DNA from: an uncultured Opitutales bacterium
GTDB lineage: Bacteria; Verrucomicrobiota; Verrucomicrobiia; Opitutales; Intestinicryptomonadaceae
Length of the DNA stretch: 64,000 nucleotides
Direction: 5' to 3'
Assembly: GCA_944390805.1 (NCBI GenBank)
Contig: CALXQW010000019.1
Span: 1-64,000, forward strand
In this document: positions 8,700 to 56,851 of the stretch, one piece after another
Position numbering within the stretch: position 1 is the first letter of the stretch
Layout: the number at the start of each line of letters is the position of its first letter
Notes under the pieces: model-generated
Told to the model about the DNA's origin: nothing
What the model saw: only the letters and a program-made list of their open reading frames with translations
Database searches by the model: none
Position numbers and translations under genes: made by a program

Positions 8700-8707
8700 G
8701 ACGGAAA

Positions 8708-15847: not shown

Positions 15848-16038
15848 TTCGTTTTGAAATTTAATGTTACAAATCTTATTTTAGATTTTGCCGTGTTTAA
15901 AACAAGCAAGCTTTTAAAAATTTGCCGCTGCTGCTATACGCCGCAGATATGGATTTTAAAATCTTTGCATAGATTGATATATTTGATGAAAGAATTAAAG
16001 CATATTTTTGGGTTTTTGTTGGATTTTGTATAGAACCC

Positions 16039-16071
16039 TTGACACCTATAAGAAAGATTTACTAGTATAAT
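16039..16071 (+). promoter_or_regulatory. Promoter directly in front of the rhamnosidase start codon
   Basis: A perfect -35 box TTGACA is at 16039-16044. A TATAAT is at 16066-16071 (spacing 21), overlapped by TAGTAT at 16063-16068 (spacing 18). Either -10 would put the first transcribed base within a few bases of the ATG at 16076, and no Shine-Dalgarno sequence is visible. The transcript may be leaderless. Confidence 0.5.
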
Positions 16072-16075
16072 CCAT

Positions 16076-35038: not shown

Positions 35039-35112
35039 GCGGGCATAGTTTAGTGGTAAAACCTCTGTCTTCCAAGCAGATGATGGCAGTTCGATTCTGC
35101 CTGCCCGCACCA
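35039..35112 (+). tRNA. tRNA-Gly (anticodon TCC)
   Basis: A full cloverleaf: acceptor GCGGGCA pairs with TGCCCGC, followed by A and an encoded CCA. The D-arm contains TAGTGGTA, the anticodon loop is CTTCCAA, and the T-loop is GTTCGATTC. The anticodon TCC reads GGA/GGG glycine codons. Confidence 0.95.
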
Positions 35113-35648: not shown

Positions 35649-37151
35649 TTAGAAATATATATTTCTCAAAGATAAAGCATCTATGAAATTGTCCTGAAAG
35701 AAAGCACTTGTATTGAGCTCTATGACCTTAGATATCTCGGAATATTTTTTTGCTAAAGTTAGAAGTTTTTTAGACAAAGCGCACATAAACGTTCCTCCGA
35801 GTGCTCCATTGCCTATTGATTTTATCTGTGCATTATCAAAACTCGGTAGTAATCCTATCTTTACTGCATTGTGAAAATTCATTCCTTTTCCAAAGCCTCC
35901 GGCTATATATACTTGCTGAAAATCTCCACTATGGGCACCTATCTCGCAAAAAAGAGTTTTTAATGCCGATTGAACAGCAGCCTTTGCCTTTATTAACTCC
36001 GATATCTCATATCTTCCAATCCTGATAGAGTCTGTAAATTTATAATATTTACCCCCATCAATGAAGGCTCCGAATTCGGAAATTAAACCTGTATGCGAGG
36101 CTTCGGCAAGAAAGTCTATATATCCTGAAGCGCATATTCCACATGCCGGCGCATTGCCTATAGTTTCATATTTCAAGCCGGGCTTTCCATCTATATATAC
36201 CCTGCATATTGCGCCGTTTTGAGCTTTTGTGGAGCACTCAAATCCCCCACCCTCAAACGCCGGACCGGCAGGAGCACTGCATGCGAACAACTGTCCTTTA
36301 TATTTTACTACGATCTCGGCGTTTGTACCTAAATCTATCATTACAGAATTACAGTCTTTTACAAACAATCCAGAGTTTACACACGCACCTACTGCATCTG
36401 CCCCGACAAAAGCCCCTATGGATGGCAAAGAAACTATTTTCTTTGTCTTTATACCCATGAAACTCTCGCACTCTACTGAATTTAGAAAATCGCTATTAAA
36501 TGGAAATGTAGCTAGGCCAGATATCTCTTTCCCGAAAAATATATGAAGCATGGCACAGTTTCCTGACACATAGAGAACCTCTATACAATCGGCATTCGCA
36601 AAACTAATGGCATCATCTAGCATCTTAGCCACTGAATGGGAAATACATTCCCTAAGAATGTTAAGACCTTCTTTTGACATTGCAAAAGCAATTCTTGATA
36701 CAACATCTGCACCATATTTGCATTGAGGATTTACAGATGTAGCACGATATATAATTTTGGACGAGGCATCAAAAAGTACAAGGGCCAGTGTTGTGGTGCC
36801 TATATCAAGCGCAGCGCGAAGACCAGAAAATGACTCTGGAATAAAGCCTTTTGGAAGTACAAAATCGGCCTCTGCAAATATAGAATTCTGGGCGGAATTT
36901 TTTGGAGGCATCATTATACGCAAATTATCAGACAAAACCACGCTTTTGCACATTCTTAAAACAGCTCCAGCAGAATACACATCTCCCTCAGATGATAACT
37001 CTCCGGATACTATTTGAACCTTGCATGCTCCGCAAACTCCGGTCCCGCCGCACACAAAATATCTTCCAAGAGAAACATCTCCATTTAAAAGCTCTTTTAC
37101 AGTTTTCCCCTTACAACCGGAAAACTCATATATTGAAGATTTTTTCGTCAT
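35649..37151 (-). CDS. Corrinoid activation protein (RACE / RamA-like, ferredoxin + ASKHA domain)
   Basis: 500 residues. The N-terminus is a 2Fe-2S ferredoxin domain with Cys34, Cys40, Cys43 and Cys68 (CGGTGVCGAC ... RMC). The rest is the ASKHA-fold domain formerly DUF4445, with AALDIGTTTLALVLFD, VMIDLGTNAEIVVK, APAGPAFEGGG and YIAGGFGKG. These proteins reduce inactive cob(II)alamin in methyltransferases to Co(I) using ATP. It is the last gene of the corrinoid operon, and its start lies 26 bases inside the DUF1638 gene. Confidence 0.9.
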   Translation of the reverse strand: MTKKSSIYEFSGCKGKTVKELLNGDVSLGRYFVCGGTGVCGACKVQIVSGELSSEGDVYSAGAVLRMCKSVVLSDNLRIMMPPKNSAQNSIFAEADFVLPKGFIPESFSGLRAALDIGTTTLALVLFDASSKIIYRATSVNPQCKYGADVVSRIAFAMSKEGLNILRECISHSVAKMLDDAISFANADCIEVLYVSGNCAMLHIFFGKEISGLATFPFNSDFLNSVECESFMGIKTKKIVSLPSIGAFVGADAVGACVNSGLFVKDCNSVMIDLGTNAEIVVKYKGQLFACSAPAGPAFEGGGFECSTKAQNGAICRVYIDGKPGLKYETIGNAPACGICASGYIDFLAEASHTGLISEFGAFIDGGKYYKFTDSIRIGRYEISELIKAKAAVQSALKTLFCEIGAHSGDFQQVYIAGGFGKGMNFHNAVKIGLLPSFDNAQIKSIGNGALGGTFMCALSKKLLTLAKKYSEISKVIELNTSAFFQDNFIDALSLRNIYF

Positions 37152-37824
37152 AGCTGGCTTTTAGAGTTTTTCCTTTTGGCAATATGAAAAATCTATCGGA
37201 ATCTATACGCATTTGTAGAGCGTCGGATAGCAAAGAATTGTTTGCGCAGATTTCTCGGAACTTCCAATTCATAAATTTTGCACACTCCATACATGCTCTC
37301 TTTGAATTCTCCGACTCGTGAAACTGCATGTAAAATACTTCATCATATGCGGCAAACTGCCCTAAGAATGCCTCCATCAAAATATCCGCACTGTCCTTGC
37401 CATATTCCGAAAGATATCTTGATTTTGTTTTTTTAAATAACTCCTCCGACGGCAGCAGCCCAGCGGAAATATATCCAGGAGACGCAAAAAATGCGCGCGG
37501 ATTATTTCTTGTAAAATCCATGGCGGCTGCCGATGAACCAAAAAAAATTCCGCGGCAATCGTGAACGCGCGGTATAACAAGCTCAAAATCATCTGATCTC
37601 AACCCCAAAGCTGCGTTGCCGCAGAGTCCGAATATCAACAAGATTCTATCGTTTTCCTTTGAGAATCCGCTGAGCTTGCCACATACAACATCCCTCATCT
37701 TGTCCGGATTTAAATGGCTCTCGGCCTTGAAAGACTCTATCTGAAGCGGCTTATTCTCAAGCTTTTCGCTCATAAGGACAATATCGTCCTTAAATATATC
37801 GCAGCACAAAACCGAGAACTTCAT
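37126..37824 (-). CDS. DUF1638-type protein of corrinoid methyltransfer operons
   Basis: 232 residues from ATG 37824; an upstream in-frame extension would overlap the MtaA-like gene. Motifs LIFGLCGNAALGL and PRVHDCRGIFFGS match the DUF1638 pattern, including the conserved His-Asp-Cys. DUF1638 genes commonly accompany methylamine, methanol or other corrinoid methyltransferases; the biochemical role is not known to me. Cys-rich content (CAKFMNW, MECAKF) suggests metal or cofactor binding. Confidence 0.75.
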   Translation of the reverse strand: MKFSVLCCDIFKDDIVLMSEKLENKPLQIESFKAESHLNPDKMRDVVCGKLSGFSKENDRILLIFGLCGNAALGLRSDDFELVIPRVHDCRGIFFGSSAAAMDFTRNNPRAFFASPGYISAGLLPSEELFKKTKSRYLSEYGKDSADILMEAFLGQFAAYDEVFYMQFHESENSKRACMECAKFMNWKFREICANNSLLSDALQMRIDSDRFFILPKGKTLKASYDEKIFNI

Positions 37825-37835
37825 AAGAAATATCT

Positions 37836-38852
37836 TTAAGAATAATATTTTGCGGCAGCTCGATAAAAAGCGTCTATATTTTCCCACTTGGCGTTTAAGG
37901 GAATGTCGCACCCAGAAGACAAGATAAAATTATCGTTATCAGCAACCCTCTCCAGCAATTCCAACGTATGCGTATAAATCCCATCCTGATCTGCTTCCAC
38001 AAATTGGGAACAAGGGTCCACATTACCCATAACAATAACCTTTCCCGATGCCGCCTTCAACATATCGGCAATATCTATGGCGTTTCCAAAATGATATGCG
38101 GCTGCTCCCATTGAAAATATGGCATCTGCCATATCTACCACAGATGGGCCGCAATTATGATATATGACTGAAAAATCATTTGTCTGAAGCGAGGAAACAA
38201 GCCTCTTCATATACGGAAGAGAAAATTCCATATTCATATCTGAAGATATCAATCCCGCCAATGGCTCTGCAACCATGATGGCATCTGCCCCCTCGTTACG
38301 ATAGGCAAGCATGTACTTCTCTAAAAAGTCCGTAGATTTTTCTAACAGCCGCTTTACTCCATCAGGATCGTCAAAGCATGCCATCATTATTTCGGAAACC
38401 CCCATAAGCCTTCCGGCAAGAGTAAACGGACCTATGCACCCTCCGTACAATGGCTTTGATAGACTTTTTTTTGACAACCTCACTGCATCAAGACAGATTT
38501 TAGTACGTCCTGCTCCCACAGATGGAACTATCAAATCATCTATATCTGCACGAGTCTTAACAAGAGGCTCTTCAACACTTGGAACCTCATCAGCCGACAT
38601 CTTCACCCGCGCGCCGAACGCCTCCGCCTCAACCGACAAATCCATAAATGTTATTGCCGCCGCCGACGGAGTTCTATCTGCCACTCGGCAAATTGCCTCT
38701 GCCTGAAGCTCTGCGCTCTGCAATGCCTTAGATACCTCCAACCCCATAAGAGATAAGGCCGGAAATGTCAGAATAGGCATTGCCCGAACGCAATCTTCAG
38801 AAACCTTAAGCCTTTGTCTTACAATATCTGGAAAGGTACACTTTCTACCCAT
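37836..38852 (-). CDS. MtaA/CmuA-type (uroporphyrinogen decarboxylase fold) methyltransferase
   Basis: 338 residues. Zinc ligands of the MtaA group are all present: His232 and Cys234 (IYHNCG) and Cys315 (LSSGCDIP), nearly the same numbering as methanogen MtaA (His237, Cys239, Cys316). MtaA-type enzymes move a methyl group from a methylated corrinoid protein to a thiol such as coenzyme M; in bacteria the acceptor is often different and unknown here. It follows the corrinoid protein gene by 31 bases, so that protein is the probable partner. Confidence 0.88.
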   Translation of the reverse strand: MGRKCTFPDIVRQRLKVSEDCVRAMPILTFPALSLMGLEVSKALQSAELQAEAICRVADRTPSAAAITFMDLSVEAEAFGARVKMSADEVPSVEEPLVKTRADIDDLIVPSVGAGRTKICLDAVRLSKKSLSKPLYGGCIGPFTLAGRLMGVSEIMMACFDDPDGVKRLLEKSTDFLEKYMLAYRNEGADAIMVAEPLAGLISSDMNMEFSLPYMKRLVSSLQTNDFSVIYHNCGPSVVDMADAIFSMGAAAYHFGNAIDIADMLKAASGKVIVMGNVDPCSQFVEADQDGIYTHTLELLERVADNDNFILSSGCDIPLNAKWENIDAFYRAAAKYYS

Positions 38853-38883
38853 ATTTATAACATATAAGCGTTTTTAAGGTAGG

Positions 38884-39507
38884 TTAAGCAACAAGCCTTT
38901 TACACAAATCAGCAGCGCTTGCGGCATCTTTTGAATATCCGTTTGCGCCTATTTTATCGGCAAAATCCTGCGTAACTGGAGCCCCGCCAACAATAATTTT
39001 TGCCTGTATTCCGCTTTTCTTGAACACGTCAACTATGTTTTTCATAGATGGCATTGTTGTTGTAAGCAGAGCAGACAAAGCAACTATGTCTGCGTTGTGT
39101 TCGCGCGCGGCCGACAAGAACTTGTCGGCACTGACGTTTACTCCAAGATCTACAACCTTGAAGTTTGCTCCCCTGAGCATCATTGCAACAAGATTCTTGC
39201 CTATGTCGTGCAAGTCTCCAAAAACAGTGCCAATCACAACGCAATGTTTCGGTTGTAATCCGGATTTCACCAATACAGGCTCAAGAACCTCAAGGACAGA
39301 ATTCATCGCCCTGGCTGCAACTAAAACCTCGGGAACAAAAACCTCCCCTGCCTTAAACCGCACGCCTATCTGGGCCATGGCAGTCAAAATAGCATTGAGT
39401 ATGTCGGCCGGATTTTCAGACTCCAGCAGCCTCGATGCAATTTCTTTTGCTTTATCCCTCTGTCCTTTCCTTACAGCTTCCGTAAGACTATCAAATTCAT
39501 TCTCCAT
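38884..39507 (-). CDS. Corrinoid (B12)-binding methyl carrier protein
   Basis: 207 residues from ATG 39507. A helical N-terminal cap (1-85, with IGVRFKAGEVFVPEVLVAA) precedes the cobalamin domain with FGDLHDIGKN, whose His100 would ligate cobalt from below, and SALLTTTMPSMK and GGAPVT further on. It resembles MtbC/MtaC-like carriers. The start overlaps the stop of the oxidoreductase gene upstream. It would shuttle a methyl group from an unidentified substrate-specific methyltransferase to the MtaA-like enzyme. Confidence 0.92.
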   Translation of the reverse strand: MENEFDSLTEAVRKGQRDKAKEIASRLLESENPADILNAILTAMAQIGVRFKAGEVFVPEVLVAARAMNSVLEVLEPVLVKSGLQPKHCVVIGTVFGDLHDIGKNLVAMMLRGANFKVVDLGVNVSADKFLSAAREHNADIVALSALLTTTMPSMKNIVDVFKKSGIQAKIIVGGAPVTQDFADKIGANGYSKDAASAADLCKRLVA

Positions 39508-39511
39508 ATTC

Positions 39512-40819
39512 TTATACAAGCTTATAAGTTGAAGGCGATGGTACCGCGTCTATTGCCCTCTTGCCCAACTCAAATTTTCCGCCTGGGAGAAAGTCCTGCT
39601 TAGACTGCTTTATCCAGCCATATTTAAACTTTTTGCCCGCATACGCGCTTTCCCTACCAGCTATGGCTATCCAATTTGAATTTATAAGAGCTTTTGAATT
39701 ATCTAGCCTGTTTCCAGAACGCATGGCCTGATACAACACCTTCTGTTTTGCAATCTGACCAAGAGCATTATTAGACGCCGCTCCAACCCACGGTTTTTCT
39801 CCGGATATTCTTGCGTTGCCTATGAGAGGCATTTCAAACATGCCTTTTGTTCCGTGAATTCTGACGTAATAGGGCATGTTGTAAGAGTTGTTCTCCTGGC
39901 GGCAGAAACTACCAAGATGCAGTCCGTTCCCAAAATCGTAATCAACAGAAAAGTGCGAACATCTATTGCCCTGATATGGCCATGTAAGAGAAACGTCCCT
40001 TCCGGCAAAACCGTTTACTTCAACCGGCTCTATATCGCCAAGCGCCCACATTGCAGCGTCTATGGAATGGATATGCTGCTCTACATATTGGTCTCCAGAT
40101 ATCCATATAAACGCCAGCCAGCGGCGTATCTGATATTCCATGTCTTCCGGATCCATTCTCTTCGGCATTGACCAGCCCTCAAGATAGGAACTGCAATAAT
40201 AGAAAGCCTGTGCACTTACAATGTCGCCTATTTGACCGTCGCGCAATCTGTTTACGCCCTCGACAAATCCTTCAAGATGCCTACCCTGCGTTCCGACAGC
40301 TATGCATAAGCCCTTTTTCTCCGCAAGCGGAACAACTTCGTTTTCTATATATCTTGCGCCAGCGGCATCAACACAAATTGGCTTCTCGGCAAATACGTGC
40401 TTACCGGCGTCCAAAGCTTTTTTCATCTCGTATGGCCTGAATACAGGAGGCGTGCACAACAATATAACATCTATGTCTGTAGCCAATATTTTATCTAGGC
40501 TGTCCACTCCGGTAAAACGACGCTCCTTAGGCACATCAAAACGCTTTTCAAGGCCGTCTTTCAGATATTTTCCCCCCGTAAATTTCTCAACGGCAATATT
40601 CATCTTATCTTCAAAAATATCGGCAAGGGCGGTTATTTTGACATTTTCGTCGGCCATGAGAGCCTCGCGCACGGCGCCTGTTCCGCGCGTGCCCAAACCA
40701 ACTACGCCCACCTTTATTGAGTTATCCGCCGCGCCCGATGCAAGAGAATATTTAGGCATAAGAGACATTGCTCCAACTGCGGCAGCTGCAGTGAGAAATT
40801 CGCGTCTTCCTTTTATCAT
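39512..40819 (-). CDS. Gfo/Idh/MocA-type oxidoreductase with Tat signal
   Basis: 435 residues. The N-terminus GRREFLTAAAAVGAMSL is a twin-arginine signal, so the enzyme should be exported folded with its NAD(P) cofactor. The Rossmann fold follows (VGVVGLGTRGTG at 37-48), with the family EKP motif in HVFAEKPICVD. C-terminal FWY-rich segments (RRWLAFIWISGDQYVEQHIH) are typical of the sugar-acting Verrucomicrobia and Planctomycetes members. A strong AAGGAGG ribosome binding site precedes it. It is the first gene of the corrinoid operon and overlaps the corrinoid protein gene, so it belongs functionally to it. The sugar substrate is unknown. Confidence 0.88.
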   Translation of the reverse strand: MIKGRREFLTAAAAVGAMSLMPKYSLASGAADNSIKVGVVGLGTRGTGAVREALMADENVKITALADIFEDKMNIAVEKFTGGKYLKDGLEKRFDVPKERRFTGVDSLDKILATDIDVILLCTPPVFRPYEMKKALDAGKHVFAEKPICVDAAGARYIENEVVPLAEKKGLCIAVGTQGRHLEGFVEGVNRLRDGQIGDIVSAQAFYYCSSYLEGWSMPKRMDPEDMEYQIRRWLAFIWISGDQYVEQHIHSIDAAMWALGDIEPVEVNGFAGRDVSLTWPYQGNRCSHFSVDYDFGNGLHLGSFCRQENNSYNMPYYVRIHGTKGMFEMPLIGNARISGEKPWVGAASNNALGQIAKQKVLYQAMRSGNRLDNSKALINSNWIAIAGRESAYAGKKFKYGWIKQSKQDFLPGGKFELGKRAIDAVPSPSTYKLV

Positions 40820-41013
40820 ATAATTTTCCTCCTTATTGCGTTTAAAAGTTTTTCGTTTTTCTAAACTTTATAATCTCAAAAATATAAATTTTTAGCAAAC
40901 GAATTTTAGAACATTAAATTAAATGTTTTTAACATTATATTTACGGTTGAAGAAAATACGTAAAACGGGTATGTTACATATAAAAATTCAATTAATAACC
41001 TTTACCTGAAAAG
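40820..41013. promoter_or_regulatory. Divergent control region of the corrinoid system
   Basis: 194 AT-rich bases between the oxidoreductase operon (minus) and the UroD-like/AraC pair (plus). AACATT (40910-40915) and AATGTT (40922-40927) form an inverted repeat, AACATT recurs at 40931-40936, and TTTACG (40940-40945) and CGTAAA (40959-40964) form another. These are candidate sites for the AraC protein at 42434. No cobalamin riboswitch was recognised. Confidence 0.4.
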
Positions 41014-42429
41014 ATGGAAAATTCAAACAGCTACACCGACAGGCTTTCAAGATATCTGACCGCAATGGCTAACCGCCAGCCCGATAGAGTTCCATTCAGA
41101 CCCTTTGCCGCAGAACTTACCGCCACACTCACAGGGAGAACATGCCAGCAGGTTACGCACGACTATCACCAGGCGTTTGAAGCTGTAATAGATACCTGCA
41201 AGATGTTCCAGTTAGATGCAATACCGGCAAGTATGGTCTATGTTTGGACAGGGCTTACGCAGTCTCTCGGGCTAAAATATTACGGTATTCCGGGCATAGA
41301 CGTACCCGCTGAAACCGGGTTCCAATATTTGGAGCCCTCCGAGGACGACGCCTTCATGAAGGCCGATGAATACGACGAACTCATAGACGATCCAACCGCT
41401 TTTCTGTACACAAAATGGCTTCCGCGCGTCAGCGCTAAAATTGGCGGAAAAGACGAGTTCGACCGTACGACGGCGATAGTAAAAGCAACCGCAGACATGT
41501 TTGAATATTTCAATGCGTTTATTCCGCATATAGAAAGAATGAAGACCGAAGTTCAGACTCCTTCGGCCATAGCTGGAATATTCAAGGCTCCTTTCGACAT
41601 TCTAGCCGACAAGATGCGCGGGTATATTGGCCTTACTATGGACATGTTCACCCAGCCGGACAAAGTCCTAAAAGCATGCGAGGCTCTCATGCCGCATCTT
41701 TGCCGAGTTGGGTTGGACTCATCCGACCAAAACGGACTTGCGCCCATGGGCTATTGGATGCACAGGGGCTGCAAACCTTTCGTATCGGAGGGCGTGTTTG
41801 AGTCTCACTATTGGTCAACCGTAAAGCCTATAATAGAAGAATTTGCCAGGGCCGGTAGACAAACTTTATTTTATGCGGAGGGAGACTGGTCTATGCATTT
41901 AAATTCTTTCAGGGAGTTGCCGGATGCGTCTATAATATACCATGTGGATAAGTCGGATATATTTGAGGTTAGCAAGGTTTTATCGGACAAATTCTGTCTA
42001 TCTGGAGGAGTCTCCAACATGGTTTTAGCTTACGGCACAGAGGAAGAAACAAGAAAGATATGCACAGATATACTAAAAACTGTTCCGAAAAACGGAGCGT
42101 ATATAATGGACGCAAGCGCAATAATGCAAAATGAGATTTCTCCGGCCAATTTCAAGGTTATGTATGAGACATGTATGGAGTTAGGCGGATATTCTTCGCA
42201 TTCGGATAGATTAGGACTGGAACGCCCCCTGCCCGACAAGTCTTCATGCGGCGTGGAAACACAGCTCTTGAAAGACTCCAAGAAAGTTTCCGTTACAAAA
42301 TCATGGGAGTGCGAGAAAAAAAGCTCCGGAATAAGCGTCTGCGGAGACGATTCCATCTGCAAAAAGGTATGGGACAAGTCTGAATCTTACGCCCAAACTT
42401 TCATATGGCAGATACTACTATCGTTCTAA
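41014..42429 (+). CDS. Uroporphyrinogen decarboxylase-fold protein without MtaA zinc ligands
   Basis: 471 residues, about 130 longer than the MtaA-like gene on the other strand. The core has NRQPDRVPFRPFAAE, DQNGLAPMGYWM and a C-terminal UroD-like half. Where MtaA has His-x-Cys, this has YAEGDW; where MtaA has the third Cys, this reads MDASAIMQ. So it lacks the zinc site for thiol activation. It may be the substrate-side methyltransferase, or use another metal. It is followed four bases later by an AraC regulator and is divergent from the corrinoid operon, which suggests a joint function. Confidence 0.75.
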   Translation: MENSNSYTDRLSRYLTAMANRQPDRVPFRPFAAELTATLTGRTCQQVTHDYHQAFEAVIDTCKMFQLDAIPASMVYVWTGLTQSLGLKYYGIPGIDVPAETGFQYLEPSEDDAFMKADEYDELIDDPTAFLYTKWLPRVSAKIGGKDEFDRTTAIVKATADMFEYFNAFIPHIERMKTEVQTPSAIAGIFKAPFDILADKMRGYIGLTMDMFTQPDKVLKACEALMPHLCRVGLDSSDQNGLAPMGYWMHRGCKPFVSEGVFESHYWSTVKPIIEEFARAGRQTLFYAEGDWSMHLNSFRELPDASIIYHVDKSDIFEVSKVLSDKFCLSGGVSNMVLAYGTEEETRKICTDILKTVPKNGAYIMDASAIMQNEISPANFKVMYETCMELGGYSSHSDRLGLERPLPDKSSCGVETQLLKDSKKVSVTKSWECEKKSSGISVCGDDSICKKVWDKSESYAQTFIWQILLSF

Positions 42430-42433
42430 GCCC

Positions 42434-43393
42434 ATGCAAAAAGGTGCGAAAAAGAAAAAATACCTCTGGATAAAGCAGCTCGACAAAGAGCTGATGATAA
42501 TGCCGCGAAAATGCGTAGAGCATTTTCTGGTAAATCCAACCATGCCGGAAAGCATGATATCCCGCATGAGAAAACGCGCCAATGTAAGCGCCCCGCAACC
42601 GCTCGACACCGACTTTCTCTTTGCAAACGACATAATCAGCGCAAGCATAAGCAAGCACCGCAAAGGTTTCTATCTTTCGAGAAACAAGCCCGACTACCAC
42701 CTTGTGATATACACGCGCAAAGGACGCTCGCTTTTGCGCATAGGCAAAGAAAAGAAAATCATAAGGCGCGGAGATGTATTCATAGCTCCGGCGGGCTCTG
42801 TGTTTGAATATACCGCTCAAACAGACTGGGACGTATTCTGGTTCCACATATCCGCCCGCAGGTTGTGGAAAGCCTATTCCGGCAAGGCACCCCTTTTGAA
42901 GAAAGCTGAGAGTTTTTCATATCTGGATAAAATAATGGATATATATTTTGAAGAGATATATAAGCCATCTGAGAAACGCTCAGCCCCGCTTCTTAGGGCG
43001 CTTTCGGAGACAATAACAGAATGTCTGCGCAAGGAATTTGTACCTTTTAAGAGTAAGACAACTTTAAATTCGGAGCTTGAAGGACTCGTACTGGAGTATT
43101 CTTCAAACCCGCAAAAGCGCATAAGTATAAAAAAGGCGGCAAAAAAGCTTGGTATATCCGAATCTAAATTCAACAGGCTTTGCGATGATATTTACGGTCA
43201 GCCTTTCGGTTCTATACTCCTGAAAAACAGAATGCTTACCGCAAAGACTCTTCTATTAGATGAAAGCAATCTTACAAATGCGCAAATAGCAGAAAAGCTC
43301 GGCTATTCAGACCAATATTCATTTTCTAAGGCGTACAAGCTCTTCTATGGTCATAGCCCAAAATGCCGCACTCAGACTAAAAAAACAGTGTGA
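42434..43393 (+). CDS. AraC-type transcription regulator
   Basis: 319 residues (a start at 42494 or 42500 is possible). An N-terminal cupin-like sensor (about 55-135, with DVFIAPAGSVFEY) is followed by two helix-turn-helix units: ISIKKAAKKLGISESKFNRL and TNAQIAEKLGYSDQYSFSKAYKLFYGHSP, the AraC signature. It lies 4 bases after the UroD-like gene. It probably controls that gene and the divergent corrinoid operon through repeats in the region between them; this is inference from position. Confidence 0.88.
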   Translation: MQKGAKKKKYLWIKQLDKELMIMPRKCVEHFLVNPTMPESMISRMRKRANVSAPQPLDTDFLFANDIISASISKHRKGFYLSRNKPDYHLVIYTRKGRSLLRIGKEKKIIRRGDVFIAPAGSVFEYTAQTDWDVFWFHISARRLWKAYSGKAPLLKKAESFSYLDKIMDIYFEEIYKPSEKRSAPLLRALSETITECLRKEFVPFKSKTTLNSELEGLVLEYSSNPQKRISIKKAAKKLGISESKFNRLCDDIYGQPFGSILLKNRMLTAKTLLLDESNLTNAQIAEKLGYSDQYSFSKAYKLFYGHSPKCRTQTKKTV

Positions 43394-49430: not shown

Positions 49431-51404
49431 CTATTTTAAGTCGTAGCCAAACTTGTAAGATATTTTGCCGTTTTCATCTGTTCTAAGAAGAACAAGCTCC
49501 TCCGCACCGCGGGAACACTTTGAAGAGGCAAATCCTTCTATTGCCGACCCCTTGTCGGGTGTTATATGCATGGAGAAGGTCTTTGAATCGACATTTTCCG
49601 ATGTCGAGATAGATCCGTTCTTGGGATCTTTTGATATCTTCACATTTTTAGTCTGGGGCTGTAAACCTGTCGCAACCGTCAAACCGGCAGCAGGCTTCTT
49701 TCTCGAATACCCAAATCTCGACTCTACAGAACACTCCCTTGAATCCATATCCAAAGTTATGGTCTTTAGCTCTGTTATTCTGCCCTTATTTGGTATAGAA
49801 TATGTGTAAGTTAGCCTTAGACCGGCCCTCTTAGGATTATTCCACAGAACCTCTGCTCGCTCGTAAACACCGGCTTTAATGAGCTTGCCGTCCATCCAGA
49901 TGCCTGTTCCACCGCAGCCCACGCCGTCGGCGACTTTGAAGTTGTCGTAAGTCTCGCTGTTTTTCTTATGGTAGTTGAAGTTCTCGTCAAAAGAGCGCTG
50001 GTACACACTCTTAAGAGTGGGCTTTTCTACAAGCTTAAACCAAACATCAATACCGCTATTTTCCAACCCTTTTGAATTTCTGAGAGCAGGACCGTAAACC
50101 CTGAATGCGGTAAGATTATTTTCCCATGCGGCGTCGTCCATGCGGCGCGGCTGAAGCATCGCTATGGCCTGTGGCGTGTTTGAATCGCGAATAGTCTCCG
50201 CAGCTTTTACCAGATCTGCATCCGCCTTTGCGATCTCAGCTCCCAAAGCCTTTGCCAATTCGCAAGAGAACAAAAGATACGCTCCTACTCCATACGGATT
50301 TGACGTATCCGGACCAAACTTCCCCGGAGCCTGTCCAACCGGCTGTATATAAGAAACCTTTCCGCTATCCGAAACACATTTCTCCGTAACGGTATTCCAA
50401 GTTTTTATCAAGTGCGGCAGATAGACGCTTGCATCTAAAATTCCTGCGTTTACGCCCCATGCGAGGGAATATGCAATAAAACATGTTGCGCTTGTTTCGC
50501 CTCCGGCAAGTTCTGAAGGGTCTGCAACATTTACACCCCATCTGCCATCTGGCAGCGACGCCGACAGTAATTTTTCAGCCATTGCCTTGTACAAGTCCAG
50601 ATAGAAGCCTCTGCGAGAGTCTCCCTCTTTAATAGCCGCAAACATACTTGGGAAAGACGCCATAACCCAGCCTTCTCCCCTGCCCCAAAATATTCTTTTT
50701 TCATTTTTGTTGAGCTTGCCTATGTAAGAGCCGTCCCTGTAAAAAAGGGAATCTTCAGGGCTAAAAAGCTCTTTATGGCATAACCTGTACTGTTGGTCGG
50801 CGAAATCGAGATATTTTTTATCTCCGGTAATAAGCGTTGCCTGAGCAAGCACACCCGGAGACATATAGAGAGCGTCGCACCAGTTGTAGAGATATTCTGG
50901 CGAGCCTCCAAACCTTGCAAAAGGCTTCTTGCCTCCCCAAGTTTTTGAATCTGCTATGACCTTGTCGAACAATTTTAAAGTTGGCTTAAGCCTATAAGCC
51001 TTGGATGCATCTGCCGCATATGTGGTAAGCCATGCCCGGCATATGGCGTGGTCGTCGGCGTGGTACGGACGTATTCCTGGCTGCCAACCAGCCATGTCTC
51101 CAAAGCGCAAAACCTCCGCCCAATACTCCGGATTACCCGACATTCTCGATACGGCTATAAGACCGTCGTAGAAAGGAGCTATCTCCCAATTTCGTATATC
51201 CAAAGACGTATTTGTAGGATTTTCTATATGCCACTTTGCCGCTTTCTGCGCCTGGCAAATTATCTTTGCCGCCGCGGCCTTGTCCGAATACGCCTCTTTG
51301 CCGCCTTTTACGGCACAATCTTGCGAAACATTCGTAGAACATGCGCAAAGCGCAAACATTGCCGACGCAAAAAACATAACATGCGCCTTTTTTATATTAG
51401 CCAT
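49431..51404 (-). CDS. GH105 unsaturated rhamnogalacturonyl/uronyl hydrolase lipoprotein with DUF4861-like end
   Basis: 657 residues. An LCAC lipobox near residue 22 predicts a lipid anchor. The GH105 alpha-barrel (to ~385) has YNWCDALYMSPGVLAQ with the likely catalytic Asp, WGRGEGWVMASF and ETSATCFIAYSLAWGV. The C-terminal third (MDDAAWENNLTAFRVYGP to the end) matches the DUF4861-type beta domain. GH105 enzymes hydrate terminal unsaturated uronic acids left by pectate or RG lyases, releasing the ketouronate used by KduI. kduD and kduI follow upstream on the same strand (43-base gap). Confidence 0.9.
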   Translation of the reverse strand: MANIKKAHVMFFASAMFALCACSTNVSQDCAVKGGKEAYSDKAAAAKIICQAQKAAKWHIENPTNTSLDIRNWEIAPFYDGLIAVSRMSGNPEYWAEVLRFGDMAGWQPGIRPYHADDHAICRAWLTTYAADASKAYRLKPTLKLFDKVIADSKTWGGKKPFARFGGSPEYLYNWCDALYMSPGVLAQATLITGDKKYLDFADQQYRLCHKELFSPEDSLFYRDGSYIGKLNKNEKRIFWGRGEGWVMASFPSMFAAIKEGDSRRGFYLDLYKAMAEKLLSASLPDGRWGVNVADPSELAGGETSATCFIAYSLAWGVNAGILDASVYLPHLIKTWNTVTEKCVSDSGKVSYIQPVGQAPGKFGPDTSNPYGVGAYLLFSCELAKALGAEIAKADADLVKAAETIRDSNTPQAIAMLQPRRMDDAAWENNLTAFRVYGPALRNSKGLENSGIDVWFKLVEKPTLKSVYQRSFDENFNYHKKNSETYDNFKVADGVGCGGTGIWMDGKLIKAGVYERAEVLWNNPKRAGLRLTYTYSIPNKGRITELKTITLDMDSRECSVESRFGYSRKKPAAGLTVATGLQPQTKNVKISKDPKNGSISTSENVDSKTFSMHITPDKGSAIEGFASSKCSRGAEELVLLRTDENGKISYKFGYDLK

Positions 51405-51446
51405 AGTTTATAGAAGAGTTATTATTAGTAGTTGCAGTTAAAATTG

Positions 51447-52217
51447 TCATCTGGCCATCCAGCCGCCGTCCACGGTGATTATCTCCCCGTTGACATAATC
51501 TGAAGCTGAACTTGCAAGGAATACGGCTGCCCCTTTGAGATCGTCTGGAGTTCCCCAGCGCCCAGCAGGTATGCGCTCAAGAATTTGCCCGGAGCGGACT
51601 TTGTCGGCCCGCAGCGCCGCAGTATTGTCTGTTGCAATATACCCCGGCGCTATCGCGTTTACATTCACGCCCTTCCCGGCCCATTCATTTGCAAGAGCCT
51701 TTGTAAGCTGCCCCACTCCGCCTTTGCTTGCCGCATAAGAAGGAACATTTATACCTCCCTGAAAAGTCAGCAAAGAGGCGGTAAATATTATCTTGCCGCT
51801 GCCGCGCTTTAACATTTCCCTGCCGATGCCGCGGGACAAGAAAAATTGGGAGTTCAGGTTTACATTTATCACATTGAACCAAAATTCATCTGAATGCTCC
51901 GCAGCAGGTGCCCTCTTTATAGTTCCAGCGTTGTTGAACAATATATCGGGAACTCCAAATGAGCTTATTATTTCGCCTGCAAGAGACTCGGCATTTGCCG
52001 GATTTGAAAAGTCGCACTTAAGCGCATGGAAACTTCTTCCTTCCGCACGAACCCGCGCGCCTATCTCGCCTCCGTCCGAAGACATAGACGCCGATACGCC
52101 AATTATGTCTGCACCCGCCTGCGCCAAAGCTTCAGCAATTCCAAAGCCTATGCCGCGGCTACACCCCGTCACCACTGCTCTCTTGCCCGCAAGCGAGAAT
52201 TTTTCGAGTATTCCCAT
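51447..52217 (-). CDS. kduD: 2-dehydro-3-deoxy-D-gluconate 5-dehydrogenase
   Basis: 256 residues. An SDR enzyme reducing 2,5-diketo-3-deoxygluconate to 2-keto-3-deoxygluconate. TGCSRGIGFGIAEALAQAGA is the nucleotide site, NNAGTIKRAPAAEHSDEFW is typical of KduD, and the catalytic YAASKGG and C-terminal YVNGEIITVDGGWMAR close the fold. It follows kduI by 4 bases. Confidence 0.93.
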   Translation of the reverse strand: MGILEKFSLAGKRAVVTGCSRGIGFGIAEALAQAGADIIGVSASMSSDGGEIGARVRAEGRSFHALKCDFSNPANAESLAGEIISSFGVPDILFNNAGTIKRAPAAEHSDEFWFNVINVNLNSQFFLSRGIGREMLKRGSGKIIFTASLLTFQGGINVPSYAASKGGVGQLTKALANEWAGKGVNVNAIAPGYIATDNTAALRADKVRSGQILERIPAGRWGTPDDLKGAAVFLASSASDYVNGEIITVDGGWMAR

Positions 52218-52221
52218 AGAA

Positions 52222-53052
52222 CTATCTAAGCTCCTTCATTGGCACTTCGTCCATATCGTCGAAGCGCTGGTTTTCTCCGCCCATGCCCCAGCAGAAAGTG
52301 TACGCCCTTGTTCCGCAGCCCGAGTGTACCGACCACGACGGAGATATTACAACCTGGCGGTTCCTCACAACAATATGCCGCGTATCTTCCGGGGCCCCCA
52401 TTATATGAAATACACAATCGTCCGGATTCATTCCAAAGTACATGTAAATTTCCGAACGGCGCTCATGCGTGTGCACCGGCATTGTGTTCCACACGCTTCC
52501 GTCGGCCAGTTTGGTGTAGCCCATTACAAGCTGTGAACTGTGTATTTTTGCCTCGCATATAGCCTGATTTATGGTGCGCTCGTTTGCGAGCGACTTGCTC
52601 CCCAAATTTATCATGTTTGCCTGGCCGAGCGCCGACTTTTCCGTTGGGAACTCCTTGTGCGCCGGATATGAGAGCAAATAGAACTGCGCGCATTTCGACG
52701 GATTGTCAGACATAAAAACCACCTCGCGCGAGCCTCGCCCCACATACAGAACCTCTCCCGCGCAAAGCCTGTAATCCGAACCGTCCACCGACACCGTTCC
52801 GTCGCCCCCTATATTTAGAACGCCAAGCTCTCTGCGCTGGCAGAAGAATTCACTCTTAAGCTCCTCCGCGGTGGAGAGACTAAGAGGGGTATCGAGAGGA
52901 CATGCGGAACCAACAACAGCCCTGTCGCAATCCGTATAATACAAATCAAGGCGGCCCTCCGCAAAGAGATCGTCTATTAAAAATGCGTCGCGCAACTGCT
53001 GTGTCGACATCTTTTCCGCGGCAAGGCGGCATGGAACATAACGTTTTTTCAT
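52222..53052 (-). CDS. kduI: 5-keto-4-deoxyuronate isomerase
   Basis: 276 residues from ATG 53052; this start aligns residue for residue with E. coli KduI (278), so the upstream extension to 53109 is rejected. It isomerises the ring-opened unsaturated uronate to 2,5-diketo-3-deoxygluconate. Zinc-binding cupin features are visible: MPVHTHERRSEIYMYF, and the later His of SPSWSVHSGCGTRAYTFCWGM. It is the first gene of kduI-kduD-GH105 and is divergent from iclR. Confidence 0.95.
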   Translation of the reverse strand: MKKRYVPCRLAAEKMSTQQLRDAFLIDDLFAEGRLDLYYTDCDRAVVGSACPLDTPLSLSTAEELKSEFFCQRRELGVLNIGGDGTVSVDGSDYRLCAGEVLYVGRGSREVVFMSDNPSKCAQFYLLSYPAHKEFPTEKSALGQANMINLGSKSLANERTINQAICEAKIHSSQLVMGYTKLADGSVWNTMPVHTHERRSEIYMYFGMNPDDCVFHIMGAPEDTRHIVVRNRQVVISPSWSVHSGCGTRAYTFCWGMGGENQRFDDMDEVPMKELR

Positions 53053-53153
53053 ATGCTTAAAAATTTCAAGCGCGCGCGTTCGGCGCGCAACAGTCAGGAT
53101 ATTTGACATTGACCCGAACTGCGTAAAGCGTTTTTTTCATATTTTGAACACAA

Positions 53154-53169
53154 TGTCCATATTTGGACA
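53154..53169. promoter_or_regulatory. Candidate IclR operator
   Basis: TGTCCA (53154-53159) and TGGACA (53164-53169) form a perfect inverted repeat with a four-base spacer, in the 160 bases between kduI and the IclR gene. ACACAA motifs flank it on both sides. It could control both directions. Confidence 0.55.
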
Positions 53170-53212
53170 CAACCTGATTGTACTTCTTTTAAAAACAGGA
53201 AAAATTTGCAAT

Positions 53213-53992
53213 ATGAATGAAAGAATGAACCGGTATATAATACCCAATCTAAAAAACGCCTGCATGATATTAAAGCATATGGGGGCAACGTCGCGTTCGT
53301 TCACATGCCTGGAAATTTCAAATGCGCTGAAGCTTCCGCGAACATCTGTAATACGAATAATGGAAACGCTGGCTCAGGAGGGATTTCTGTCTAAGGCAGA
53401 CGGTTCATACACTCTCGGAAGCGCACTGTCCGCCCTTGGAGACTGCACTCTTGCAAGGACTAATATCCTAAAGCTGGCGGACCCCCACCTTAAAAATCTT
53501 ACCGAGGCCACAGGGGAAACATCGCAATTGGGCATACCCTCCGGCACAAAAGTTCTTATAGCAAAAGTTTGCGAAAGTCCCCTACCACTTCATGCGGCGT
53601 CGCGTGCGGGAGCCCTTGTAGATATGCACTGTTCCGGCACTGGAAAGGTTCTACTTGCCTACATATGCGAAAGCGATCCATCCTTCTTGAAGAAAATACG
53701 CCTGGACAAGCGCACTCAAAACACAATCTGCTCTGCAACAGCCATGAACAAAGAGCTGGCCCTGATAAGAAAGAGAGGATACGCGATAGACAATCAGGAA
53801 TACCATTTAGGAGTGCGTTGTCTTGCCGCTCCCATAAAAGACGCATCTGGGGCTACGGTAGCTTCTATAGGCATAACGGCTCCTGCAATGCGCTTTTCGC
53901 CGTCTAAGGACAAGAAAATGTATGAGATTGTAGGAAAAGCCGCGGCAGAGTTTGAGGAAAGGCTCGGCGCAAAGCAGAATTTGAAAAGATGA
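53213..53992 (+). CDS. IclR-type transcription regulator
   Basis: 259 residues from ATG 53213; the ATG at 53144 would run through the operator-like palindrome and lacks a binding site. An N-terminal winged helix (CLEISNALKLPRTSVIRIMETLAQEGFLSKADGSYTLG) precedes the IclR effector domain (DMHCSGTGKVLLAY, GYAIDNQEYHLGVRCLAAPI). KdgR, which binds 2-keto-3-deoxygluconate, is of this family, so a similar role for kdu and TRAP genes is likely. Its stop overlaps dctP by 4 bases. Confidence 0.9.
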   Translation: MNERMNRYIIPNLKNACMILKHMGATSRSFTCLEISNALKLPRTSVIRIMETLAQEGFLSKADGSYTLGSALSALGDCTLARTNILKLADPHLKNLTEATGETSQLGIPSGTKVLIAKVCESPLPLHAASRAGALVDMHCSGTGKVLLAYICESDPSFLKKIRLDKRTQNTICSATAMNKELALIRKRGYAIDNQEYHLGVRCLAAPIKDASGATVASIGITAPAMRFSPSKDKKMYEIVGKAAAEFEERLGAKQNLKR

Positions 53993-55020
53993 AAGAAAAA
54001 ACCCTAAAAGACTTATCCTGGTTTGCCCTTGGAATTTTATGCGGAGCATTGGCGGCATCTGCAATATTTGCCGTATCGAGCGGAGGGAGCAATGGAAATT
54101 CCGGCGGAAAAAATTCTCCCAAAAGAGTATTAAAACTCGCGCACGGGTTGGAATCTACGCACCCTGTGCATCTTGGCATGCTGAAGCTTAAGGAGATTGC
54201 GGAAAAGTTAAGCGACGGAAAATTATCTATAGATATATACAGCGGAGGCGCTCTTGGTTCTGAAATAAAATGTACCGAACAGGTAAGAAGCGGCGCGCTC
54301 GACATGGCGAAAAATTCCTCATCTCCGCTGAGTGTTCATGTGCCGGAGCTTGGAGCTCTTGCTATGCCGTATCTTTTTAGAAATTCAGAGCACTACTGGA
54401 GGGTTCTTGACTCAAAGATAGGCAAAGACCTATTGAAATCCATGGAGAAGAACGGATTTGTTGGGCTATGCTTCTACGATGCCGGCGCAAGGTGCTTCTA
54501 CACTGTCAACAAGCCCGTAGAAAAACCATCGGACCTTGCCGGCATGAAGATTAGGGTCATGAATTCCCGACCCGACATAGCCCTGATAAAAGCTTTGGGC
54601 GCTGCCCCAACGGTAATATCTGCCGGAGAAACTTACACATCGCTTGCGCAGGGCGTTGTTGACGGCGCGGAGAACAACATTCCAACCTATCTTGCAAGCG
54701 CGCATTGCGAGGTGGCTAAGTTCTTTACGCTCGATGAGCACACGCGCATTCCTGACGTGCTTTTCATTGGCCTAAACACATGGCGTTCCCTAAGCGAAAA
54801 AGAAAGAGAAATACTTTTGCGAGCCGCGGAGGAGTCGTCAAAATACCAAAGGGAACTCTGGAGGGAAAAGACGAAAGAGGCAAAGGCTGAACTCGAAAGA
54901 AAAGGCGTAAAATTCATAGTGCCAAAGGAAAGCTTTGAACCGGCGGCAAGCTCGGTTTACAAAGACTGCACCTCCCCTGAAATAAATGCGATAATTTCAA
55001 AGATAAGGGCTGTTAAATGA
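53989..55020 (+). CDS. TRAP transporter solute-binding protein (DctP)
   Basis: 343 residues. The N-terminal segment (11-30) is a signal or membrane anchor with no clear lipobox. Mature motifs are LKLAHGLESTHPVH, YSGGALGSEIKCTEQVRSGALDM, the conserved Arg of MKIRVMNSRPD that binds a carboxylate, and DGAENNIPTY. It captures an acidic solute outside the inner membrane. Set among kdu genes and IclR, a (keto-deoxy) uronate is the likely cargo. Confidence 0.92.
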   Translation: MKEKTLKDLSWFALGILCGALAASAIFAVSSGGSNGNSGGKNSPKRVLKLAHGLESTHPVHLGMLKLKEIAEKLSDGKLSIDIYSGGALGSEIKCTEQVRSGALDMAKNSSSPLSVHVPELGALAMPYLFRNSEHYWRVLDSKIGKDLLKSMEKNGFVGLCFYDAGARCFYTVNKPVEKPSDLAGMKIRVMNSRPDIALIKALGAAPTVISAGETYTSLAQGVVDGAENNIPTYLASAHCEVAKFFTLDEHTRIPDVLFIGLNTWRSLSEKEREILLRAAEESSKYQRELWREKTKEAKAELERKGVKFIVPKESFEPAASSVYKDCTSPEINAIISKIRAVK

Positions 55021-55559
55021 ACATTCTTTTCCTGCGCGTAAACTCATGCGTCAAGGCTGCCGCAAGGGTGCTTCAACGCCTGCTTGGAGGGTTCTGCGCC
55101 GCGCTGCTTTCCCTGCTTGTGCTGGATGTTTTATGGGGAGTTCTTACAAGGTACATGTTAGGCTCTCAGGCTGATTTTACTGAGGAATGCGCGCGTATGC
55201 TGTTAATCTGGCTGACGTTCTTCGGAGGAGCATACGCTTTTGGAAAAAATGCGCACATAGGGCTTGATTTTCTCGTTCTTAAATTTTCGCCTGCTCCGCG
55301 CAAAACGGCGCGCGTGCTGGCGGCAGTCATGACGCTTGTATTCGCTTTGGCAATTCTGTTTGCCGGCGGAGTAATGTTTGTGATTACGGCAAAGAATTCA
55401 GATACTTCTTTGGTATGCCTGCCGTCTGTAAAGCTGTGGTGGATATACATGTGCCTGCCTGCAAGCGGAATTATTGCGGCGCTATTCGCCCTTGAAAACA
55501 TAATGGACACTCTCTTTGCTGATACAAAAGAATGCTGTAAGGAGGATACTCAGATATGA
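55017..55559 (+). CDS. TRAP transporter small membrane subunit (DctQ)
   Basis: 180 residues with four hydrophobic segments (about 27-50, 60-78, 93-118, 138-158). DFTEECARMLLIWLTFFGGAYAF and KNAHIGLDFLV are DctQ signatures. It overlaps dctP and dctM by 4 bases on each side (ATGA). Confidence 0.92.
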   Translation: MNILFLRVNSCVKAAARVLQRLLGGFCAALLSLLVLDVLWGVLTRYMLGSQADFTEECARMLLIWLTFFGGAYAFGKNAHIGLDFLVLKFSPAPRKTARVLAAVMTLVFALAILFAGGVMFVITAKNSDTSLVCLPSVKLWWIYMCLPASGIIAALFALENIMDTLFADTKECCKEDTQI

Positions 55560-56851
55560 ATGCTCTGGCAATTCTTGCGGTATTCTTCTCTTCGGCGTTG
55601 CTGCTTTCTGCTCCGATAGCTGTGGTTATAGGGTTGTCGGCGCTCGTTGCCATATATGCGGCGGGATTTGACCCGCTCGAGATATGCGCAACGTCTATGC
55701 TGCAAGGAGTTGACAGCTTTGCCCTGCTGGCAATTCCGTTTTTTATTCTATCAGGAATGATAATGGGCAAAGGTTCAATGGCCAAACGCCTGATGGATTT
55801 TGCCTCAGCGCTTGTAAGATTTCTTCCGGGAGGGCTAGCGTATGTAAACACAATAACATGCATGCTATTTGGGGCAATATCGGGAAGCGCAGTGGCTGCG
55901 GTAAGCTCAATAGGCTCTTTCATGATTCCGCAGATGGAGAAGAAATGCTGCGACAAGGAAACGGCAGTAGCAATAACAATCTGTTCGTCTACAACAGGCA
56001 TGCTTATACCGCCAAGCAATATTATGATAGTCTATTCTGTCGCTGTCGGTGGGCTGTCTATCGGCGCGCTTTTTATGGCGGGCATAATTCCAGGAATAGT
56101 GCTTGGAATATGCATTATGGCGGCGAGCTACTTTATTATAAGGAAAAACCGCTCCCCGAAAGAAGGGTCGTTAGACTTCTCCTTAATATGGAGCACTTTT
56201 AGGCGGGCCTTCCTGAGCCTGATGCTTGTAGTTGTGGTGCTGGGAGGAATATTGTGCGGAATCTTTACGGCGACAGAATCGGCAGTAATATCTGTCGTCT
56301 ACGCACTGTTGCTGGAGGTGTTTGTTTATAGGGATATCTCCAGCAAGGAGCTTTTTAAAATATTGGCAGGCGCCGCAGCTACAACCGGGATTGTAATGCT
56401 AATTGTAGCAGCCTCCAGTGCAATGAGCTGGATACTTACTATGACAAACGCCCCTGCAAAGATTGCCGAGGCCTTATCGATATTTGGAGACAGCCGCATT
56501 GCCATACTGATTGTCATAAACATAATATTACTGTTTGTTGGAATGTTTATGGACATGACCCCTGCGGTGCTTATTTTTACGCCAATACTTTTGCCAGTAG
56601 TCAGGGAAATAGGCGTAAGCGACCTTCATTTTGGAATAATTATGATATCTAATTTGTCCATAGGGCTATGCACGCCGCCCGTAGGCACCTGCCTGTTTGT
56701 GGGCTGCGGAGTTGGCAAGACAGACATATCGAGGCTGACTCCAAAAATGTTGCCGTATTTTGCGGCCATGCTTGTGGCGCAGATTCTGGTAACCTTCATT
56801 CCAGACTTGTCAACGGCTCTCCCGGAAATGCTTGGAATGGTATCTGAATAG
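55556..56851 (+). CDS. TRAP transporter large permease (DctM)
   Basis: 431 residues, about 12 membrane segments. Motifs: LAIPFFILSGMIMGKG, FGAISGSAVAAVSSIG, STTGMLIPPSNIMIVYS, and LCTPPVGTCLFVGCGVG near the C-terminus, all typical of DctM. It uses the sodium gradient to import the solute delivered by DctP. It ends the iclR-dctPQM transcript, which converges with djlA. Confidence 0.94.
   Translation: MNALAILAVFFSSALLLSAPIAVVIGLSALVAIYAAGFDPLEICATSMLQGVDSFALLAIPFFILSGMIMGKGSMAKRLMDFASALVRFLPGGLAYVNTITCMLFGAISGSAVAAVSSIGSFMIPQMEKKCCDKETAVAITICSSTTGMLIPPSNIMIVYSVAVGGLSIGALFMAGIIPGIVLGICIMAASYFIIRKNRSPKEGSLDFSLIWSTFRRAFLSLMLVVVVLGGILCGIFTATESAVISVVYALLLEVFVYRDISSKELFKILAGAAATTGIVMLIVAASSAMSWILTMTNAPAKIAEALSIFGDSRIAILIVINIILLFVGMFMDMTPAVLIFTPILLPVVREIGVSDLHFGIIMISNLSIGLCTPPVGTCLFVGCGVGKTDISRLTPKMLPYFAAMLVAQILVTFIPDLSTALPEMLGMVSE

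Follow-up and report, generated by a model that had tools for sequence, protein, structure and literature searches.

A block of seven genes at 35649-43393 of the window (the whole stretch of DNA analyzed, 64,000 nucleotides of contig CALXQW010000019.1 from an uncultured Opitutales bacterium) is likely to be one regulated unit for corrinoid-dependent demethylation, to which we assign a probability of about 0.7, and the UroD-fold protein encoded at 41014 (UroD2) is very probably the substrate methyltransferase that had seemed to be missing from it.

Organization and conservation of the gene unit

The preliminary description had placed seven genes in two divergent units at this site, with the minus-strand genes overlapping or separated by at most 31 bases, and both points were confirmed: all seven ORFs are intact and in place, and the Pfam domains assigned to them agree with that description. 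The features are as follows.

35649..37151, minus strand: corrinoid reductive activator of the RACo/RACE type, 500 aa (PF14574, 196.9 bits; PF17651, 107.2 bits; PF00111)
37126..37824, minus strand: DUF1638 protein, 232 aa (PF07796, 98.9 bits)
37836..38852, minus strand: MtaA-like methyltransferase of the UroD superfamily, proposed second methyltransferase (PF01208, 208 bits)
38884..39519, minus strand: methyl-carrier corrinoid protein, 211 aa (TTG start) or 207 aa (ATG 39507) (PF02310, B12-binding; PF02607, B12-binding_2)
39512..40819, minus strand: Gfo/Idh/MocA oxidoreductase with a twin-arginine leader (GRREFLTAAAAVGAMSLMP) (PF01408, 48 bits)
40820..41013, no strand: intergenic region from which the two transcription units diverge; the sister species has it too, in conserved form
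41014..42429, plus strand: UroD2, proposed substrate:corrinoid-protein methyltransferase (MT1), 471 aa (PF01208, 63.6 bits)
42434..43393, plus strand: AraC-family regulator (PF12833, HTH_18; PF02311, AraC_binding)

A sister species (L033/L034) carries all seven genes in identical order with 68-93% amino-acid identity, so that the divergent pair, whose occurrence in related genomes the preliminary description had left to be checked, is indeed conserved. The silent sites of the cassette are saturated or nearly saturated between the two species, and the nucleotide similarity is limited to 35667-43350, with unrelated flanks. Because the sister species keeps the seven genes in order and the similarity ends at the edges of the unit, a chance assembly is ruled out on this comparison. 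No convincing att-like repeats were found at the cassette ends.

UroD2 as the probable substrate methyltransferase

The closest solved relative of UroD2 is CdmB (9rui; E = 5.7e-22, and 4.9e-43 with a profile), with the catalytic barrel covered by the match. CdmB is a proven MT1 and belongs to CdmBCA, the chloromethane methyltransferase system of Acetobacterium malicum subsp. dehalogenans (PMC13222342). The predicted structure of UroD2 also has the UroD fold (pLDDT 89), and thus the protein combines the fold with a sequence relation to a characterised MT1. In an alignment of 81 sequences, the UroD2 residues H250, C253, E289, H295, D312, and D366 are invariant and H310 is nearly so, and in the model H250/C253, E289, H310, and D366 fall within barrel strands or immediately follow them. 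According to our own reading of the profile alignment, CdmB has P/Y, Q, W, and T, respectively, in place of these latter residues, and its pocket is reportedly aromatic and free of metal (PMC13222342). UroD2 therefore has, as far as the alignment shows, a polar and possibly metal-binding pocket instead. UroD2 further differs from CdmB, besides its invariant polar pocket, in about 80 additional C-terminal residues ending in FIWQxLLSF.

The zinc motif of aromatic O-demethylases is E-x14-E-x20-H. UroD2 has the second part exactly (E289-x20-H310) and carries E275 and E276 in place of the first glutamate; because the glutamate is missing at the first place, this partial agreement is treated as a lead. 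A classical substrate methyltransferase elsewhere, which would have spoken against UroD2 in that role, was ruled out as the true MT1, neither MttB nor MtaB being found in the genome (90.5% complete).

At least 467 relatives of UroD2 were found, in genomes of Verrucomicrobiota, Planctomycetota, Bacteroidota, and Armatimonadota; the plasmid collection held just one distant UroD relative, in Sporomusa. The family is spread widely among groups that degrade glycans. The RACo activator is present in 39 of 40 UroD2 genomes, the exception being the genome that holds locus L106, and in a phylum sample it occurs in 12 of 13 genomes with UroD2 and in 129 of 375 without (Fisher p = 3.5e-5, relatedness not being fully corrected). 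At the level of single loci, a corrinoid protein adjoins UroD2 in L050, L059, L071, and L089 and lies about 5 kb away in L074, and DUF1638 is adjacent or near in L052, L053, L059, L074, and L088. L059 and L074 bring UroD2 together with a corrinoid protein, an HCC-type MtaA-like enzyme, RACo, and DUF1638. A gene resembling the MetH activation domain lies close upstream of UroD2 in four further loci. The neighborhood search proposed earlier for the 41014 protein revealed corrinoid-system genes next to UroD2 in separate lineages, and the earlier suggestion that this protein acts as the substrate methyltransferase is well supported by the homology to CdmB, the co-occurrence with the activator, and these independent neighborhoods. 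The free corrinoid protein and activator that should accompany an MT1 in its unit or genome are likewise present, on genomic evidence.

Corrinoid protein and its reactivation

The protein encoded at 38884..39519 is the only free-standing corrinoid protein in the genome, keeps the motif DLHDIG, and matches the corrinoid protein 1y80 with an E-value of 1.2e-52. The activator has the RACo_C_ter, Raco_middle, and Fer2 domains, is the sole RACo match in the genome, and keeps the cysteines C34, C40, C43, and C68 of its N-terminal 2Fe-2S domain, so that both the RACo domains and the cluster ligands expected of a RACo/RACE-type enzyme are present. For the DUF1638 gene, the start MKFSVLCC at ATG 37824 is common to the sister species, and the coding sequence most likely begins there rather than at the mechanically called GTG 37911. 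GLC and RxHDC are invariant in the DUF1638 alignment, and the predicted model is of good quality (pLDDT 89.8), with no significant match in the PDB by sequence or by fold. The DUF1638 protein is probably an accessory of corrinoid reactivation; in Phaeobacter, genetics indicated that DUF1638 and a RamA-like protein serve a split methionine synthase (PMC5764234).

Methyl acceptor and comparison with known systems

The preliminary description regarded only the substrate methyltransferase as absent. This held for the recognized types, MttB and MtaB, whereas a folate-type second methyltransferase proved to be absent as well: PF00809 had only two matches in the genome (90.5% complete), read as DHPS and MetH, and an AcsE/MtrH-type enzyme was therefore rejected. 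An MTHFR_C partner was also sought in the genome and none was found. The MtaA-like protein has the intact zinc ligands described for it (H232-x-C234 and the distal C315) and aligns with MtaA (4ay7), and its scores are below the curated MtaA cut-offs (135.8 of 235.4 bits for TIGR01463 and 106.5 of 400 for NF040654). Because MttB, MtaB, and the usual folate second methyltransferase are absent from the genome, this enzyme is the only candidate acceptor enzyme, as far as the sequence can tell. It follows that the acceptor may be a thiol, which is a guess from the zinc ligands because the protein falls below every curated MtaA cut-off.

The cassette resembles several known systems in part. It shares with CdmBCA an MT1, a small corrinoid protein, and an activating enzyme, whereas a CdmA-type pterin methyltransferase is missing and DUF1638, the oxidoreductase, and AraC are added. 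The MtvBCA, OdmB/VdmB, and MtoBCAD systems (PMC8630106, PMC13222342) likewise have a UroD-superfamily MT1, a free corrinoid protein, and an ATP-dependent activator, but in them an MtrH/AcsE-like enzyme delivers the methyl group to tetrahydrofolate or tetrahydromethanopterin, whereas the cassette has only the MtaA-like HCC protein; a pterin-type second methyltransferase like those of Cdm, Mtv, and Mto was not found in the genome. Type 1 mlp clusters (Kountz and Balskus, PMC10418091) have in common with it an HCC-type UroD-fold methyltransferase, a corrinoid protein, Ram/RACE, and no folate methyltransferase, and no folate methylase was found within 20 kb of the cassette. However, in such clusters at least two Mlps, the corrinoid protein, and Ram all share one direction of transcription, whereas the cassette has a single HCC Mlp, a second UroD protein (UroD2) that differs in sequence and lies on the opposite strand, and DUF1638 and the oxidoreductase. 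With the MtgBC glycine betaine system and the split methionine synthase (PMC12478193, PMC5764234), it shares a RamA-like activator together with DUF1638, and the best model scores of its corrinoid protein are those of MtgC (200 of 370 bits, below the cut-offs), but an MttB-type MtgB is absent from the genome. The 37836 protein has the fold and zinc ligands of the soluble CoM methyltransferase MtaA of methanogens, differing in its score and in having UroD2 instead of MtaB as partner.

Proposed mechanism, substrate, and alternative explanations

In the mechanism we propose, UroD2 would bind a methylated substrate, which is probably polar and carries the methyl on oxygen, and would transfer this methyl to the corrinoid of the 38884 protein in its Co(I) state. 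The RACo-type enzyme, assisted by DUF1638, would return oxidized corrinoid to Co(I), and the MtaA-like zinc enzyme would move the methyl group from the corrinoid to an acceptor, for which a thiol such as homocysteine or sulfide is the likeliest choice. Outside the cytoplasm, the exported oxidoreductase may act on a sugar-like compound, either the substrate or the product, and AraC would turn the unit on. We infer the direction of methyl flow, the O-methyl chemistry, the thiol acceptor, and the roles of the oxidoreductase and regulator from the genes present.

A link to sugars or glycans, suggested earlier from the oxidoreductase, was borne out in part. Among 80 UroD2 loci, 17 have a Gfo/Idh/MocA gene no more than 1.5 kb from UroD2 and 9 have a xylose-isomerase-like gene at such a distance, although both families are abundant in these phyla. 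The oxidoreductase of the window has sugar/inositol dehydrogenase matches and is 93% identical to its sister-species counterpart, where AraC (81% identical) also keeps its position. Its role as a conserved orthologous partner of UroD2 was rejected, because its nearest relatives (42-48%) are paralogues from its own genome and family, whereas it shares about 30% identity or less with the oxidoreductases found next to other UroD2 genes. Since genes for oxidoreductases and sugar isomerases repeatedly occur next to UroD2, our favored guess for the substrate is a polar sugar or cyclitol with an O-methyl group, perhaps a methylated sugar from plants. The complete form of this proposal, a corrinoid system that demethylates O-methyl sugars or cyclitols with two UroD-fold methyltransferases and carries the methyl group from an ether oxygen to a thiol with no folate step, is tentative and, taken as a whole, rather unlikely.

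It is possible, albeit on balance doubtful, that the unit is instead a demethylase for methoxylated, lignin-type aromatics like MtvB, OdmB, VdmB, and MtoB, with the oxidoreductase as an incidental neighbor. In this part of the superfamily, those relatives of CdmB that have been characterised demethylate aromatic methoxy compounds (PMC13222342; MtoB, PMC8630106), and neither corrinoid demethylation of sugars nor a sugar O-demethylase of this kind was found in the literature searched. On the other hand, those systems use the pterin-type second methyltransferase, which is absent from the genome, and the UroD2 family is common in glycan degraders, with oxidoreductases and sugar isomerases as neighbors and no recognizable aromatic genes. 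Methyl salvage into methionine or folate, in which UroD2 would demethylate a small metabolite and the MtaA-like enzyme would convert homocysteine to methionine, is also rather unlikely. The homocysteine S-methyltransferase in the L074 cluster, the methylenetetrahydrofolate reductase with its C-terminal partner domain in L059, the four loci with the MetH-activation-domain-like gene, and the Phaeobacter precedent (PMC5764234) fit such salvage, but a long MetH-like ORF (1229 residues) and an ordinary MetF are already present elsewhere in the genome, and the oxidoreductase and the AraC regulator would be left unexplained. Salvage is compatible with the demethylation unit proposed here, as the fate of the methyl group.

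It is improbable that UroD2, a UroD-fold enzyme, plays no part in corrinoid chemistry and is a mere neighbor of the other genes. Most of the 80 UroD2 loci have no corrinoid gene in the flanks covered, the co-occurrence being at the genome level, but the strong association with RACo argues against it, as do the corrinoid-system genes that recur next to UroD2 in separate lineages. An action of UroD2 on methylated selenium compounds or methylthiols is very unlikely, because UroD2 has no His-Cys-Cys site, which is said to be nearly invariable in such enzymes, and is transcribed in the opposite direction, and the window genes scanned included no selenium gene. Demethylation of haloalkanes (chloromethane) in the manner of Cdm, brought to mind by CdmB being the closest solved relative, is barely credible, since CdmB has other residues at the polar pocket positions that are invariant in the UroD2 family and the CdmA-type pterin methyltransferase is absent.

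Biological significance

Plant and algal matter commonly contains methylated sugars and aromatics, and we found no description of a corrinoid enzyme that removes the methyl ether from the sugars. If the sugar proposal is true, the UroD2 family would give Verrucomicrobiota, Planctomycetota, Bacteroidota, and Armatimonadota a widespread and largely unrecognized means of demethylating sugars, probably in oxygen-exposed habitats too. DUF1638 would also be tied to a further kind of corrinoid system. Because the key enzyme of the cassette is a member, the widespread uncharacterized UroD2 family gains its first likely role, and its tight tie to corrinoid activation in major polymer-degrading phyla makes its at least 467 members concrete proteins to assay.

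Results and Discussion

The seven open reading frames that the preliminary description assigned to a corrinoid cassette at 35649-43393 were all found at their positions, and domain assignments agreed with the names given to them. They form two divergent transcription units, the minus-strand genes being listed here in transcription order:

39512-40819, minus strand, first: Gfo/Idh/MocA oxidoreductase with a twin-arginine leader
38884-39519, minus strand, second: corrinoid protein
37836-38852, minus strand, third: MtaA-like UroD protein
37126-37824 (using the likely start), minus strand, fourth: DUF1638
35649-37151, minus strand, fifth: RACo-type activator
41014-42429, plus strand: second UroD-fold protein (UroD2)
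42434-43393, plus strand: AraC

The zinc ligands claimed for the MtaA-like protein (H232-x-C234 and C315) were all present, and the DLHDIG motif of the corrinoid protein and C34/C40/C43/C68 of the activator were intact. The DUF1638 gene shares an operon with the activator, and work on Phaeobacter mutants connects DUF1638, along with a RamA-like protein, to the reactivation of B12 (PMC5764234). The structural model of DUF1638 is confident but had no significant match among PDB folds, so the protein may have an undescribed fold, one linked with reactivation of the corrinoid.

Among 273 genomes searched in the order Opitutales, UroD2 was present, besides the window genome, only in a sister species of the same genus (CALXLX010000005.1), which carries all seven genes in identical order, so that the divergent pair is conserved in a relative. 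DNA similarity extended over 35667-43350 with none beyond on the stretch compared. At the amino-acid level the oxidoreductases of the two species are 93% identical, the UroD2 proteins 87%, the corrinoid proteins 86% and the AraC proteins 81%; DUF1638, activator and MtaA-like enzyme reach 68-75%. Silent sites of the cassette genes were saturated or close to saturation. Thus, linkage of the corrinoid genes to the oxidoreductase and the divergent pair is long-standing and has outlasted a change of position. In both species a tRNA gene adjoins the cassette, with side and direction shared but the gene itself different (Gly-TCC, 35039-35112, in the window; Thr-CGT, 3822-3895 of locus L033, in the sister). 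Neither an integrase nor a clear att repeat was seen by the cassette, which may have moved via tRNA sites.

The proposal that UroD2 acts as the substrate METHYLTRANSFERASE is rendered probable by CdmB homology, co-occurrence and gene order. A PDB sequence search returned a single match, CdmB, the substrate:corrinoid-protein methyltransferase of chloromethane use (PMC13222342), with a profile match (E 4.9e-43) spanning the barrel. The predicted structure (pLDDT 89, pTM 0.90) has the UroD fold and matched MtaA too. Among 81 UroD2 relatives, H250, R251, C253, E289, H295, D312 and D366 were invariant and H310 had one exception; H250/C253, E289, H310 and D366 lie in or directly after barrel strands in the model's secondary structure. 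As read from the alignment, CdmB instead has P for H250, V for R251, Y for C253, Q for E289, L for H295, W for H310 and T for D366, with D at D312, in agreement with its cavity, reported to be aromatic and metal-free (PMC13222342). The His-Cys-Cys site, a mark of S/Se enzymes, is absent from the UroD2 sequence; in O-enzymes, Cys is exchanged for carboxylates or the site is lost (PMC10418091). Because this site is missing, O-methyl chemistry would be the better guess for UroD2.

A scan of GTDB species genomes gave at least 467 UroD2 relatives, the best 80 of which belong to Verrucomicrobiota, Planctomycetota, Bacteroidota, Armatimonadota, KSB1, Omnitrophota and Sumerlaeota. A RACo domain was found in 39 of 40 genomes with UroD2 relatives and, in a 388-genome phylum sample, in 12/13 genomes with UroD2 versus 129/375 without (Fisher p = 3.5e-5, kinship only partly corrected).

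Neighbourhoods outside the genus also place UroD2 in corrinoid methyl transfer. A corrinoid protein adjoins it at L050 (Verrucomicrobiales), L071 (Akkermansiaceae), L089 (Kiritimatiellae) and L059 and lies ~5 kb away at L074 (Pedosphaera), and DUF1638 is adjoining or near at L052, L053, L059, L074 and L088. At L059 and L074, UroD2 occurs together with an HCC-type MtaA-like protein, RACo, DUF1638 and a corrinoid protein. The neighbourhood also holds methylenetetrahydrofolate reductase with its C-terminal partner domain at L059 and a homocysteine S-methyltransferase at L074, hinting at methionine or folate as possible end points of the methyl group. The L059 cluster (8556-16384: methylenetetrahydrofolate reductase, UroD2, corrinoid protein, HCC UroD protein, RACo, DUF1638) also encodes a third UroD protein, which lacks the HCC site. 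Directly upstream of UroD2 at L051, L083, L093 and L096 (Omnitrophota and unclassified genomes) is a related small gene; that of L083 (4817-5524), the sole one of the four tested, matches the MetH activation domain, and such a gene perhaps replaces RACo or works beside it.

In the window genome, which is 90.5% complete so that absences are not final, neither MttB nor MtaB was found as a rival classical substrate methyltransferase, nor was an AcsE/MtrH-type enzyme. There is a single free corrinoid protein besides MetH, and of the three UroD proteins in all, the third scores as full-length URO-D and is probably HemE. The MtaA-like protein is therefore the sole candidate second enzyme in this genome. 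With MtaA and the Mlps as guides (PMC10418091), its zinc site suggests a thiol acceptor.

The earlier suggestion of a methylated sugar or glycan as substrate gains partial support from neighbouring genes and the pectin context. In 17/80 loci UroD2 has a Gfo/Idh/MocA gene no more than 1.5 kb away, and in 9 of the 80 a xylose-isomerase-like gene. Loci with full flanks hold 10 Gfo/Idh/MocA genes within 3 kb, compared with 3, 3 and 1 over the three 3-kb steps beyond; many loci with sugar-gene neighbours are from Planctomycetota and lack independence. The window also carries:

49431-56851: pectin/uronate locus, 6 kb from the cassette (GH88, KduD, KduI, IclR/KdgR-like regulator, TRAP transporter DctPQM)
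16076-20173: GH106 alpha-L-rhamnosidase, a large protein that includes sugar-binding domains

Pectin bears methyl esters, and its RG-II part bears 2-O-methylxylose and 2-O-methylfucose. The oxidoreductase and isomerase neighbours, the pectin and rhamnosidase genes and these methyl groups make a methylated sugar or cyclitol the favoured candidate substrate.

Judged by homology, co-occurrence and gene order, the cassette is real and conserved and probably serves corrinoid demethylation, with UroD2 as its probable substrate enzyme. It would represent a variant, itself new, of an already known kind of such system.
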